From: Bdellovibrionales bacterium GWB1_55_8
GTDB taxonomy: Bacteria > Bdellovibrionota > UBA1018
Reading direction: 5' to 3'
NCBI GenBank assembly: GCA_001769835.1
Contig: MEPR01000030.1
Span: forward strand, 15,571-61,680
DNA length: 46,110 bases
Position numbers and translations under genes: made by a program. The stretch's first letter is position 1, and each line of letters opens with the position of its first letter. This document shows positions 1-44,026 of the stretch, piece after piece. The notes beneath the pieces were generated by a model. That model was not told the DNA's origin. It worked only from the letters and a program-made list of their open reading frames with translations, and searched no databases.

Positions 1-2245
1 TTTTGGCGGAGGTTGAGTCATTGCTTAATCCCGTGACGCTCACTGCGGCAGTGTCGAGTTCGTAGTCCACTGCTGCAGTGGAGCAGCTTGAGGTATTGCC
101 GGCCGCGTCGGTCGATCTGGAATAGAACGAGTAGCTTCCGTCACTCAGGGCACTTGATTGCAGATCAAGCGTTACGCCTGCCGCGGTTCCTGACGCTGTC
201 AGACTTGTGCAGCTGGAATTCGAATGAAGTTCGATGGTGTCGCCACTCGTGACTCCGCTGATTCGGATCGTCGGAGTGCTGTTGTTGCCCGGGCTTGCGG
301 CCGGTGTAATCAGGGTCAATCCTGAAGGGACGCCAGGCGCCGTGTTGTCGAGAACGGCGGAAACCGTTACGACTTCCGACTCGTTTCCTGCGTCATCTTT
401 TGCTTGAACATGGATATAATATGTACCGGTGCCAGAAGCTTGCGAAGCGCTCGCAGTCGCGCCGTAAGCACTCACGGGAGAGCTGCTAGCGGCTTGATCG
501 ATGACGTGCCGATAGGTGCAATTGGCCTTATTGCAGCCCCAATTCCACGAGACGGTTTTCGAGGGAGTGATGCTGCCCGAAAGTCCTGTCACGTTCACGG
601 CTGCCGTATCCAGCACATACGCTGCGCTTGCTATGGAGCAGGTGGAAGAGTTCCCGGCGCTATCGGTTGCCTTTGCGTAAAACGAGTGGCTTCCGTTGGA
701 GAGGGCATTGGATGTGAGATCGAGAGTGGGTCCCGTTGCCTCACCTGCAGCATGCAGCCCCGGAATGCTGCAGCCGCTGTCAACATAGAGCTCAACGGAA
801 TCGCCGGCGACAAGTCCGCTCACGCGGATGGTCGGGGTAGCGTCCGTGCCGGGAGAGGTTGCAGGGGTGACGAGTGCGAGCGCTGAGGGCGCGCTTGGGG
901 CTGTATTATCCAGAACGGCTGAAACGGTCACGACAGCGGACTCATTGCCCTGGGCGTCTTTGGCCTGAACATGCAGATAAAACGTGCCCGTGCCGGAGGA
1001 TTGGCTGGCGGAAGTTGTGCTGTTATAACTTCCGGAGGGCACAGTCCCCGTGTTCTGATCGATGAGCGAGCGATAAGTGCAAGGCGCCTGATCGCAGCTC
1101 CAGCTCCACGATTTTGTTTTGGCCGCCGTCGTATCATTGCTCAACCCGATGACAGAGGGGGCGCTGAGGTCGAGCATGATCGTATTGTCGGTTGTGGTGG
1201 ATGCCAGATTGAAGTTGCCAGCCGCATCGAGCACCACCTGTGCGGCAATCGTGGGCTGAAGAGTTCCGCCGCTTGCAGCGGTGGCTCGTAACAGGAAAGT
1301 GCGGCTGTCAGTTGAAGGATTTGTGATCTCCCAGCTGACACCCGTTGCGCTTCCGGTCTGTCCGATGTCCAAGGCGCTGAAGCTTTCCGCTTGAATGGTT
1401 TTGCTGAAAATGACCGTGAAGTCGATCGGTAAAGTGCCTACCGGATCAGGCTGGCTTGCGGCTTGATTGATCGTTACTGAGACGGGCTGATTATCATAAG
1501 TGACCAGTGGATCGGTGCTGGTCGAAAGCGTGTTGGTATTTCCGGCTGTATCTTGGATCGATTCGGCATTGACCTCCGGAAGGATCGTGCCCGGAGTTGT
1601 GATTGCTGTAGCAGAAAGAGTGAAGCTTCTGTCGTCGCCGCTATTGCTGATTTGCCATGTAATTCCGCTAGCCGTACCGGTTTGTGCAATGTCTGAAGCA
1701 GTGAACGTTGACGCCGTAATCGCTTCGTTGAACTCGACTGCAAATTGAATGGGCAGCGTATTGACGAGCGCAGGTTGAATGCTTTTGCGATTCATCGTTA
1801 CGGTTGGCGCTGCCGTATCGACGCTGATTGCCGGAGAACATTCGGAGACGGTGGATGCATCCACCTGATTAAACGTGGTGACGTGGAACGTGTAGGTCTC
1901 TCCGTTTGTTCCCGTGAAGCTCTTGGTGCCTGTGACACCTGAAAGAAGTTCAATCTCCGGGCCTGTGGAATTCAGGCATCGATCATCAGAGAAAAATTCA
2001 ATCGTTTGTTTTCGCACGTCCATGGACAACGTGGGTGTCCAGCTTGCTGTTAGACCAGTATTTTTCGTCGGAGAGTTTTCGATCCAGGCTAAGCTGGTAG
2101 CAGGCTCGATTTCGGAAACAGAGGTGAGCGCTGCATCGCCAGACTCAGAGTATAAAGCAATCGTCGGACGACAGCCCGATAGAGCAACATTGCTGGCGAT
2201 CATAGAAAACAGTACTAATTTCTGCAGGGCTAATTTTGTAGTCAC
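1..2245 (-). CDS. Ig-like repeat surface lipoprotein, 3' end beyond left edge (partial)
   Basis: An uninterrupted minus-strand frame runs from a GTG at 2245 to the window edge (748 codons, no stop). The GTG follows an AAGGGAG ribosome site. The N-terminus is a lipoprotein signal: MTTKLALQKL, a hydrophobic stretch, then the lipobox LSGC (Cys about residue 25), so the product should be lipid-anchored in the envelope. After a fibronectin-like stretch come two copies of a roughly 96-residue bacterial Ig-like module (shared motifs such as LPIxFxVxF and DIxQTGxAxGxxW). Then comes a roughly 187-residue module containing SWxWxC, TYRxxIDQ, GTxYxHVQAKD and VSAVLDNTAP, which repeats in tandem and continues past the edge. 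Such proteins are usually surface adhesins or stalk proteins; ligand unknown. Two UUA Leu codons lie in the signal peptide. Confidence 0.85.
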   Translation of the reverse strand, partial: MTTKLALQKLVLFSMIASNVALSGCRPTIALYSESGDAALTSVSEIEPATSLAWIENSPTKNTGLTASWTPTLSMDVRKQTIEFFSDDRCLNSTGPEIELLSGVTGTKSFTGTNGETYTFHVTTFNQVDASTVSECSPAISVDTAAPTVTMNRKSIQPALVNTLPIQFAVEFNEAITASTFTASDIAQTGTASGITWQISNSGDDRSFTLSATAITTPGTILPEVNAESIQDTAGNTNTLSTSTDPLVTYDNQPVSVTINQAASQPDPVGTLPIDFTVIFSKTIQAESFSALDIGQTGSATGVSWEITNPSTDSRTFLLRATAASGGTLQPTIAAQVVLDAAGNFNLASTTTDNTIMLDLSAPSVIGLSNDTTAAKTKSWSWSCDQAPCTYRSLIDQNTGTVPSGSYNSTTSASQSSGTGTFYLHVQAKDAQGNESAVVTVSAVLDNTAPSAPSALALVTPATSPGTDATPTIRVSGLVAGDSVELYVDSGCSIPGLHAAGEATGPTLDLTSNALSNGSHSFYAKATDSAGNSSTCSIASAAYVLDTAAVNVTGLSGSITPSKTVSWNWGCNKANCTYRHVIDQAASSSPVSAYGATASASQASGTGTYYIHVQAKDDAGNESEVVTVSAVLDNTAPGVPSGLTLITPAASPGNNSTPTIRISGVTSGDTIELHSNSSCTSLTASGTAAGVTLDLQSSALSDGSYSFYSRSTDAAGNTSSCSTAAVDYELDTAAVSVTGLSNDSTSAK
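28..1150 (-). repeat. Tandem ~561-bp coding repeat in the Ig-like lipoprotein
   Basis: Landmarks recur at a 561-bp spacing (187 codons): AGAACGGC at 351 and 912, and the segment encoding VTGLS or VIGLS near 19, 580 and 1141. At least two full units lie in the window and a third begins at the left edge. Units are diverged at the nucleotide level, so the duplication is not very recent. Confidence 0.8.
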
Positions 2246-25188: not shown

Positions 25189-25275
25189 TTGACGCAGTGC
25201 TGCCTCAGTTCGGGGTTGCGAAACTGTGTTGCCCCTATTAACTTCGCGCCATTCACAAACTTGCCGTTTGTATAA

Positions 25276-25298
25276 GCCAGGAATGGGCCTGGCGTTTC
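25276..25298 (+). terminator. Weak terminator-like hairpin
   Basis: GCCAGG (25276-25281), 6-nt loop, CCTGGC (25288-25293), followed by GTTTCT. A short stem and short T-run, so a weak terminator for the glpX group at best. Confidence 0.3.
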
Positions 25299-25346
25299 TA
25301 CCGGACACCGTGCTTTTCAGCAAAATGTCCGACTACAGGGGCGTCT

Positions 25347-25916
25347 ATGTATTTACTTCTTGTTCTCTTCAGCGCGTTTTCCATCCAGGTCCAGGCCGAG
25401 CCGATTCAGAGCCTATTTGAGAAACTTCGGGACAGTGGTGAGGACTATCAGAATGAGGGCGCCGTGTGTGAGCAGGTTGCGCGGCTGGAGCTTCAGCGGG
25501 AATATCCCTCCCATTCTTATGAAATCGTGGTCGGGATCGAATACGCGAACGTCAGGCAGACGATCGGCGAGCTGGATGTCGTTGTTTTTGACCGCCATGG
25601 CCAGGCTATTCTGGTGGGCGAGGTGAAGTGCTGGAGTGACTTGCGCAAGGCGCGAAGGAAAGCGGCCCAGCAGCGCACCAGGTTCCTTGATACGATCCAG
25701 TCGGGAGCCCCGATTGATATGTTTCTTGCCTCTAATCGTTCGGTTCCGTTTCGGCGGGAGCAGTTTCAGGCGCTTTCCCGATTCATTTCGATTTCCCAGC
25801 GCGGCGGACGCAGTTTCGGTTTTGATCGGGATTTGCCAAACTCCCTTTCCGAGATGCGTGAGCTTCGCGAAACGCTTATGCAGTGCCAGGCTGCAGGCAA
25901 GTGCCGAAGGCCTTGA
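25347..25916 (+). CDS. Exported PD-(D/E)XK nuclease-like protein
   Basis: 189 residues. Signal peptide MYLLLVLFSAFSIQVQA cleaved before EPIQ. The nuclease signature is well formed: Glu42 in the first helix (CEQVARLELQREY), Asp77 in GELDVVVFD, then Glu92-Val-Lys94 in ILVGEVKCW, and a following helix DLRKARRKAAQQRTRFL. This resembles restriction-endonuclease-like domains of the Mrr/NERD or UPF0102 type. The Cys near the first helix and two near the C-terminus could form disulfides after export. Substrate not known; a periplasmic or secreted DNase is the simplest reading. Confidence 0.72.
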   Translation: MYLLLVLFSAFSIQVQAEPIQSLFEKLRDSGEDYQNEGAVCEQVARLELQREYPSHSYEIVVGIEYANVRQTIGELDVVVFDRHGQAILVGEVKCWSDLRKARRKAAQQRTRFLDTIQSGAPIDMFLASNRSVPFRREQFQALSRFISISQRGGRSFGFDRDLPNSLSEMRELRETLMQCQAAGKCRRP

Positions 25917-42377: not shown

Positions 42378-42875
42378 ATGCGTTTTCATTCGATCACCGT
42401 AGGTGGTCTGTTCCTTCTTTCTTCGCTGCATGGATCGGCAAGCGGTCTTGCCGCTGATTACAATGGAAGCTGGAATTCGGCGAGCGGTACAGCGGTTTTT
42501 TACGACGACAATCGCGGTCCGATTGCTTACGAACAGTGCACGTTGCGACTGGATGTTCAGCAGACAAATGATCGCCTTACGATCGCTTTTCTCGGTGTGG
42601 ACTGCAGTATTACGGATGATCTCCCGTTCAGCCATGAAGCCATCGGGATTGGGCTGGAGATCCGCGGCGACGCACTCTATGGGGATGGAGGGCAGAAAGT
42701 GGGAACGATCACCGAGAAACTGATCTCGTTTGATCATGCGGACAACTCGGATGGAATGCATTATTTCGACGTCGATCGCGAGGCTTCCGGAGCGCTGACG
42801 GTGAACTGGGCCTACCGTAACAATCTATTCCCCGGGTTTGATGTTCAGGGCAGCGTTTTTCGCAAGCCTGAGTGA
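42378..42875 (+). CDS. Exported hypothetical protein
   Basis: 165 residues. Signal peptide MRFHSITVGGLFLLSSLHG... ending near GLAA before DYNG. The mature domain is beta-rich (YNGSWNSASGTAVFYDD, CTLRLDVQQTNDRLTIAFLGVDC, SFDHADNSDGMHYFDVD, GALTVNWAYRNNLF) with two cysteines likely disulfide-bonded, recalling a small lipocalin-like barrel. No family named. It converges on the tRNA gene. Confidence 0.65.
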   Translation: MRFHSITVGGLFLLSSLHGSASGLAADYNGSWNSASGTAVFYDDNRGPIAYEQCTLRLDVQQTNDRLTIAFLGVDCSITDDLPFSHEAIGIGLEIRGDALYGDGGQKVGTITEKLISFDHADNSDGMHYFDVDREASGALTVNWAYRNNLFPGFDVQGSVFRKPE

Positions 42876-42885
42876 AAAAAAAGAG

Positions 42886-42958
42886 TGGCGTACCCCGGAT
42901 TCGAACCGGGACTTGAGCGATTTTAAGTCGCTTGCCTCTACCGTTGGGCTAGTACGCC
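42886..42958 (-). tRNA. tRNA with UAA (Leu) anticodon and short variable loop
   Basis: 73 nt, CCA not encoded. Seven-pair acceptor GGCGTAC/GTACGCC, A73. The D arm has three pairs (GCC/GGC). Anticodon stem AGCGA/TCGCT with loop CTTAAAA, so the anticodon is UAA (minus strand 42925-42923). The variable loop is CAAGT, 5 nt. T arm CCCGG-TTCGAAT-CCGGG. Every other dimension is that of a class I tRNA. Canonical bacterial tRNA-Leu is class II with a long variable arm, so charging by LeuRS is not assured. It lies 34 nt downstream of metF on the same strand and is followed by a run of eight Ts. Confidence 0.9.
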
Positions 42959-42992
42959 GCACTACGGAATCTATTTAATTCGCCCGAGCGTG

Positions 42993-43931
42993 TCAACCGA
43001 GCAACGGTGCTAAAAGTTTAAGGGCGCCTACCGCAGCTTGAGCGTCAGAGATGACAAAGAGGTGGATCCCCGGGGCGCCCAGCTCGCGGAGCCTGCTCAC
43101 CAGTTTCAGGAGCACCTCAATTCCTCTTTCCTCAGAATCAGGGCCGGGCTCCTCCGGAAGCTGGCTCAGAAGAGATGCCGGGATGGTTACGTTGAAGCGC
43201 GCGGCCATTTTCAAGGCCTGGGACCGGGACTTCAGAATACGAGTGCCTGGAAGAATCGGCACCGTGATTCCGTTTCGGTCGCACTGGTCGCGGAACCGTG
43301 CATACACGTCCGGATCAAATAACATGTCCGTGATCCCATATTGAGCTCCTGCTAGGACCTTCTTTTCAAAATAGCTGATCCGCTTCTCGGAATCCGGAAA
43401 GTCGGGATACAGCGCCGCGCCGATGCAGAAATCAGTCCGTTCAAAGCCGTCTCGCCCCGGCCCTCCGGGCCGCGGAATGTAGTCCCCGCGGTTCATGCTC
43501 GAAATTTGCCCGATCAGCTCGTAGGCGTAATTGTAGCCTCCTTCGCGGGGTTTCCATTCGATGACCCCTTCGGGGGGATCTCCGCGAAGGGCCAGGATGT
43601 TTCGGATGCCGAAATAATGGTGATCGACGAGCTGGTTTTCGACTTCAAACGGGGTCAGATCCCGGCAGGTGAAATGCGCGATGCAGGGTACGCCGAAGGT
43701 TTCCTTGATGGCCTGTGCGATCGGGAGGCTTCCACCCCGAAGGCTTCCTCCGGCACCTTTGGTGACGGCGAGAAATTGCGCTCCTGCTTGCGTCAACAGT
43801 TGGATTTGATCCAGGACCTTCGCCTGCTCTGAACCATTGCGAGGCGGAATGACTTCGGCCGAAAGAGTGAAGGGGGACTCGCGGAGAACGTCTGTGAGTT
43901 TTCGATCGGGCTTGAATGGAAATACGGCCAT
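42993..43931 (-). CDS. metF: Methylenetetrahydrofolate reductase
   Basis: 312 residues from ATG 43931. MTHFR landmarks: LSAEVIPPRNGSEQ (family FExxPP/EVxPP region), AVTKGAGGSLRGGSL, PCIAHFTCRDLTPFEVENQL, GIRNILALRGDPP, YPDFPDSEKRISYFEKKVLAGAQYGITDMLFD. FAD enzyme that reduces 5,10-methylene- to 5-methyl-THF for methionine synthesis. The EVIPP variant and the absence of a C-terminal regulatory domain are normal for bacteria. The tRNA follows on the same strand. Confidence 0.93.
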   Translation of the reverse strand: MAVFPFKPDRKLTDVLRESPFTLSAEVIPPRNGSEQAKVLDQIQLLTQAGAQFLAVTKGAGGSLRGGSLPIAQAIKETFGVPCIAHFTCRDLTPFEVENQLVDHHYFGIRNILALRGDPPEGVIEWKPREGGYNYAYELIGQISSMNRGDYIPRPGGPGRDGFERTDFCIGAALYPDFPDSEKRISYFEKKVLAGAQYGITDMLFDPDVYARFRDQCDRNGITVPILPGTRILKSRSQALKMAARFNVTIPASLLSQLPEEPGPDSEERGIEVLLKLVSRLRELGAPGIHLFVISDAQAAVGALKLLAPLLG

Positions 43932-44026
43932 TTCTGTTATTTTCCTGAAGTGGCGCATCTTGTAAAGCTAAAGCGGGCATTCATTTTTATGGGAATCGCT
44001 GGCCGTTTCCAGTATTTCTGGCCTGG

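Follow-up and report, generated by a model that had tools for sequence, protein, structure and literature searches.

The question raised by this locus is what a leucine tRNA with a short variable loop is doing in a bacterium. Reviews describe cytosolic tRNA-Leu as a class II tRNA, with a long variable arm. Within the window, the whole 46,110-nt stretch of DNA from Bdellovibrionales bacterium GWB1_55_8 that was analysed, positions 42886–42958 on the minus strand carry one complete 73-nt tRNA of class I, GGCGTACTAGCCCAACGGTAGAGGCAAGCGACTTAAAATCGCTCAAGTCCCGGTTCGAATCCGGGGTACGCCA, with the anticodon of tRNA-Leu(UAA). With which amino acid this tRNA is charged, which codons depend on it, and from where it came are considered below in turn.

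The single tRNA call made by ARAGORN in the window was tRNA-Leu(UAA), at 42885–42958 on the minus strand, and Rfam RF00005 matched 42886–42958 over its full length at 60.4 bits (threshold 29, E 1e-10). The cloverleaf folds at −29 kcal/mol, against a mean of −19.1 for dinucleotide shuffles (z −3.4, 0/200 as stable), with stems of 7/3/5/5 bp, and all 20 expected stem pairs are intact. A tRNA pseudogene was ruled out by the intact stems and the stable fold, and an Allo-tRNA or other 8/4 or 9/3 tRNA, with its long variable arm, by the 7/5 split and the short loop. All three analyses agree with the original prediction, which had described a 73-nt cloverleaf with a Leu UAA anticodon, a CTTAAAA loop, and a 5-nt variable loop; its word "perfect" is slightly generous in view of the D arm, which is leucine-type, has one extra base, and consists of three Watson-Crick pairs (10-25, 11-24, 12-23) with C13 opposite A22. 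Canonical bacterial class II tRNA-Leu has a variable arm of at least 10 nt, and the 5-nt loop places this gene outside that group. Other tRNAs listed from the same genome encode CCA and this one does not; one CCA-adding enzyme is present in the genome. A separate terminator hairpin was looked for after the tRNA, and none was found. The features of the locus are collected in Table 1.

Table 1. Features at and around the class I tRNA-Leu(UAA) gene, in window coordinates.
Feature	Position	Strand	Basis
Class I tRNA-Leu(UAA) gene, 73 nt, no CCA	42886–42958	−	ARAGORN, Rfam RF00005, fold
Anticodon UAA in loop CTTAAAA	42923–42925	−	ARAGORN; anticodon at position 34
D arm, leucine-type: 3-bp stem, C13/A22, A14 A15, G18 G19 U20 A20a	42934–42949	−	Sequence comparison
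Variable loop CAAGT, 5 nt; U48 pairs with A15	42911–42915	−	Sequence comparison
Discriminator A73	42886	−	Kept in 124/125 family members
Putative sigma-70-type promoter TTGACA-17-TAGATT, ending 9 nt before the tRNA	42968–42996	−	10/12 matches; 0.1 expected in shuffles
Run of 8 T just 3′ of the tRNA, possible transcription stop	42875–42882	−	Sequence
metF (methylenetetrahydrofolate reductase), upstream neighbour marking the slot	42993–43958	−	Pfam PF02219, 199 bits; adjoins class II tRNA-Leu(UAA) in relatives

An orphan 165-aa ORF (42378–42875, plus strand) is convergent with the tRNA; it matched no Pfam family, and the loci fetched from relatives contained no homologue of it. Elsewhere in the window, a purine riboswitch aptamer was found at 25248–25355 on the plus strand (Rfam RF00167, 46.5 bits, cut-off 37), with an ORF beginning at 25347 directly downstream.

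In E. coli, the determinants of tRNA-Leu are A73, the trans-Levitt pair A15-U48, G18G19, and A20a, and the long variable arm is dispensable for LeuRS, arm-truncated tRNAs staying active (PMC9976931). The whole E. coli leucine set is present in the class I tRNA-Leu(UAA). A73 together with A15-U48 was found in all three class II Leu tRNAs of the genome, and among its 26 tabulated non-Leu tRNAs only in tRNA-Arg(CCU). The search for LeuRS gave one match over the cut-off in the genome, clearly of bacterial type. As a separate observation, this LeuRS (L367:1495–3921) is without ~55–60 residues found in Thermus LeuRS, at about residues 580–636.

Charging with an amino acid other than leucine, which would recode UUA or cause mistranslation, had been offered by the original prediction, and would suit a class I body, the usual form for most other amino acids, joined to a Leu anticodon. 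The presence of every leucine determinant, in a combination rare elsewhere in the genome, and of a single ordinary LeuRS makes it extremely improbable, as do the UUA positions of metF, where almost every orthologue has Leu or Ile opposite the two UUA codons. Few codons enter this small test, which supports leucine and gives no hint of recoding in the aligned sequences. UUA positions of a less conserved hydrolase gave an uninformative alignment, and PDB searches with the hydrolase and with SulP returned nothing bearing on decoding. Judged by its sequence, the class I tRNA-Leu(UAA) is most likely leucine-accepting.

UUA makes up 37 of the 1290 Leu codons (2.9%) in 39 window genes, and CUA is about equally rare (30 codons). 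Since UUA is present in core genes (iscS-like, rnc, der, and metF, with one codon in leuS), the class I tRNA looks like a general decoder. The rarity of UUA would also be expected of a regulator dedicated to rare-codon genes, like Streptomyces bldA, as would the enrichment of UUA in a lipoprotein-like repeat protein (2–2245, minus strand, GTG start), where it accounts for 7/52 Leu codons, above the window average; the two UUA codons that had been pointed out in the signal peptide of this protein are indeed there, as codons 5 and 10. A regulator of this kind is nevertheless very unlikely, and is not required to explain the gene, given that rnc, der, metF, leuS, and other core genes use UUA, that CUA is equally rare, and that a near-consensus putative promoter lies ahead of the tRNA.

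A tRNA census with RF00005 of the 3.78-Mb, 96-contig draft assembly found 40 tRNAs that passed the cut-off; the Leu tRNAs among them were Leu(CAA), Leu(UAG), Leu(CAG), and the class I Leu(UAA). Neither this census nor two pattern searches found a class II Leu(UAA) in the draft genome, and the class II gene was found in 45/58 relatives searched. The assembly contains no tRNA-fMet, -His, or -Ile(GAU) either, which are essential as well, so the absence of the class II gene alone proves little, and this gene may be hidden in an unassembled gap. The occupied slot next to metF is a stronger argument for replacement than the absence of a class II gene. On the sequence at hand, the class I tRNA-Leu(UAA) is probably the genome's only UUA decoder.

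The class I gene lies directly downstream of metF, and metF adjoins class II tRNA-Leu(UAA) in nine fetched relatives. The class II gene was found within ~100 nt after metF in six relatives (G002, G005, G018, G021, G026, and G037), of which G037 belongs to a different family within the order; the two genes are not linked everywhere, the class II gene being elsewhere in two relatives (G001 and G003). Close relatives with a normal isotype and another anticodon at this locus had been envisaged as grounds for dropping the original prediction, and what relatives carry there is the same anticodon, in class II form. A BLAST search with the 73-mer in 57 relatives gave no match, and pattern matches in relatives for the class I tRNA turned out not to be tRNAs. 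The class I Leu(UAA) is a singleton among 58 genomes of its class, and uniqueness is claimed within these 58 genomes, since the comparison across the phylum covers the matches listed. No intermediate arm forms were seen among the relatives compared, which include no genome of the same genus. Because the class I gene stands in the metF slot of the ancestral UUA decoder, random insertion is unlikely, and from the gene order it can be inferred that the class I gene took the place of the class II tRNA-Leu(UAA) in situ.

Relatives of the gene were sought with a family pattern consisting of a leucine-type D arm, a UAA anticodon, and a short variable region, which matched at least 120 viral contigs and at least 117 bacterial contigs; these counts are lower bounds, since the pattern demanded GGTAGA and so missed the GGCAGA form, which dominates the order of Curtobacterium. 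When ARAGORN was run on 80 viral loci among the matches listed, 80 Leu(UAA) calls were returned. A total of 125 distinct class I Leu(UAA) sequences had A73 in 124 and C13 in 123, neither of which was imposed by the search; positions 15-48 were A-U in 86 and G-C in 30, and the acceptor, anticodon, and T stems varied with pairing kept (compensatory changes). GGTAGA, C25, CTTAAAA, and the T-loop motif were built into the search pattern, and the parser required G10 and purines at 14 and 15, so these are not counted as findings. The gene in the window has the C13/A22, GGYAGAGGC-type D arm, CTTAAAA loop, 5-nt variable loop, and A73 of the family. Among the matches listed, the nearest sequences were from Verrucomicrobiales (L278 and L316) and Myxococcales (L258), followed by two phage contigs (L147 and L106), with a best identity of 64/71 (L278), the sequence being too short to settle the donor. 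A plasmid search gave only two records. With its leucine determinants, an orthologous class II slot, and a large class I Leu(UAA) family, the tRNA is well supported as a variant Leu tRNA, the first of the possibilities raised for it.

Class I Leu(UAA) was also found in named phages, annotated simply as tRNA-Leu. In Vibrio phage KVP40 and relatives, some class I Leu(UAA) matches fall under a tRNA-Ile or tRNA-Met annotation; the annotation may be wrong, or the tRNA may be of another kind. Class I Leu(UAA) was also found in Saccharothrix, Lentzea, Allokutzneria, Crossiella, and related high-GC actinobacteria (nine loci), where it corresponds to Streptomyces bldA; one Lentzea genome has two copies.

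The same metF slot would be occupied if a deletion had removed the long arm of the ancestral class II tRNA-Leu(UAA) in place, as in mitochondria, without any foreign gene. Truncation of this kind seems to occur, since Leu(UAA) of Candidatus Uzinura (L284) and Limnoglobus roseus (L320) joins a D arm like that of class II to a short variable loop, and 55/71 aligned positions of the gene in the window are identical to the class II gene of G018. The best family match among the matches listed is higher, however, and the D arm (U8A9, C12-G23, C13), the anticodon stem, and the variable loop fit the class I family and not the native class II gene, from which the acceptor stem and the missing CCA also differ. 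Replacement is favoured on account of the D arm and anticodon stem, which fit the family, and of the acceptor stem and 3′ end, which differ from the native gene; truncation in place is considered unlikely. The Uzinura and Limnoglobus loci are perhaps independent in-place truncations, and Limnoglobus also has a class II copy.

To compare the two classes, a pattern matching both was applied to 49 class I genomes, of which 46 were without a class II match and 3 had both. In the order of Curtobacterium, 122 of 168 genomes matched this pattern, and by length the matches listed comprised 111 genomes with class I only, 11 with class II only, and 0 with both. As a control, the same pattern matched 242/292 genomes of the window's phylum, and the matches listed were class II. 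The gene could instead be an extra phage-derived tRNA, supplementing a class II Leu(UAA) that is missing from the draft assembly: the family is carried by at least 120 viral contigs, CCA is not encoded, other essential tRNAs are missing from the assembly as well, and both classes do occur together in the three genomes mentioned. Such a supplement is decidedly unlikely, as the native class II slot is occupied, neither a prophage gene nor a duplicated end of a tRNA was seen beside the tRNA, and mutual exclusion of class I and class II is the rule in other lineages. A second copy of the tRNA's 3′ end was not found within the window, and a simple phage remnant was ruled out as the main reading by this result together with the class II slot.

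Taken as a whole, the locus very probably holds a working, leucine-charged UUA decoder, which belongs to the class I family and sits in the ancestral class II slot. A functional class I tRNA-Leu(UAA) would be recognised by LeuRS through A73, A15-U48, G18G19, and A20a, none of which should need a long variable arm; its 3′ CCA end would be added by the CCA-adding enzyme, and it would read UUA, possibly also UUG, as leucine. Its source would be the class I Leu(UAA) family of phages and scattered bacteria, by horizontal acquisition, and the acquired gene would have taken over the slot of the ancestral class II tRNA-Leu(UAA) next to metF.

With the canonical bacterial class II tRNA-Leu(UAA), the gene shares UAA, the CTTAAAA loop, A73, A15-U48, G18G19, A20a, the 3-bp D stem, and, in several relatives, the locus downstream of metF, but it differs in its variable region (5 nt here, an arm of ~13–20 nt there), in its acceptor and anticodon stems, and in encoding no CCA. 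Phage class I tRNA-Leu(UAA) (Serratia phage Kamaji, Bacillus phage P59) has the D arm GCCCARNGGTAGAGGC, the short variable loop, A73, and the anticodon in common with it, but is phage-borne, and many members have G15-C48 instead of A15-U48. The class I tRNA-Leu(UAA) of Actinomycetales, Myxococcales, and Verrucomicrobiales shares the family signature, and in most cases no other Leu tRNA with a UAA anticodon was matched in the genome; this form is the norm in the order of Curtobacterium, whereas the gene in the window stands alone within its class. Animal mitochondrial tRNA-Leu(UUR) likewise has no long arm and is charged via A73 and A14 (PMC9976931), but is organellar and independently derived, with another LeuRS and structure. 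The mycobacterial tRNA-Leu(UAG) with a short variable loop, part of a transferred tRNA cluster, is also bacterial and apparently horizontally acquired, but its anticodon is UAG, and it is an extra beside a normal class II isoacceptor and not a replacement (PMC6582537).

In searches of open-access literature, no paper was found that assigns a class I tRNA-Leu(UAA) the part of main or normal UUA decoder in a bacterium, the mycobacterial tRNA-Leu(UAG) coming nearest, and this role is provisionally taken to be undescribed. The evidence leans towards a broader picture, in which bacterial tRNA-Leu is not universally class II, and a mobile class I Leu(UAA) shared with phages displaced the class II UUA decoder in several lineages, became usual in an actinobacterial order, and entered the native slot here. 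If so, living bacteria could do without the long arm of tRNA-Leu, as in vitro work with E. coli implied, and leucine and serine identity would be separable in its absence. Where UUA is read solely or mainly by an armless tRNA, nature would have provided a test of the real requirements of LeuRS, EF-Tu, the ribosome, and tRNA-modifying enzymes, and in high-GC actinobacteria the same question bears on the UUA/bldA regulatory system. The class I Leu(UAA) family also suggests a common pool of tRNA genes on which both phages and the core gene sets of bacteria draw.
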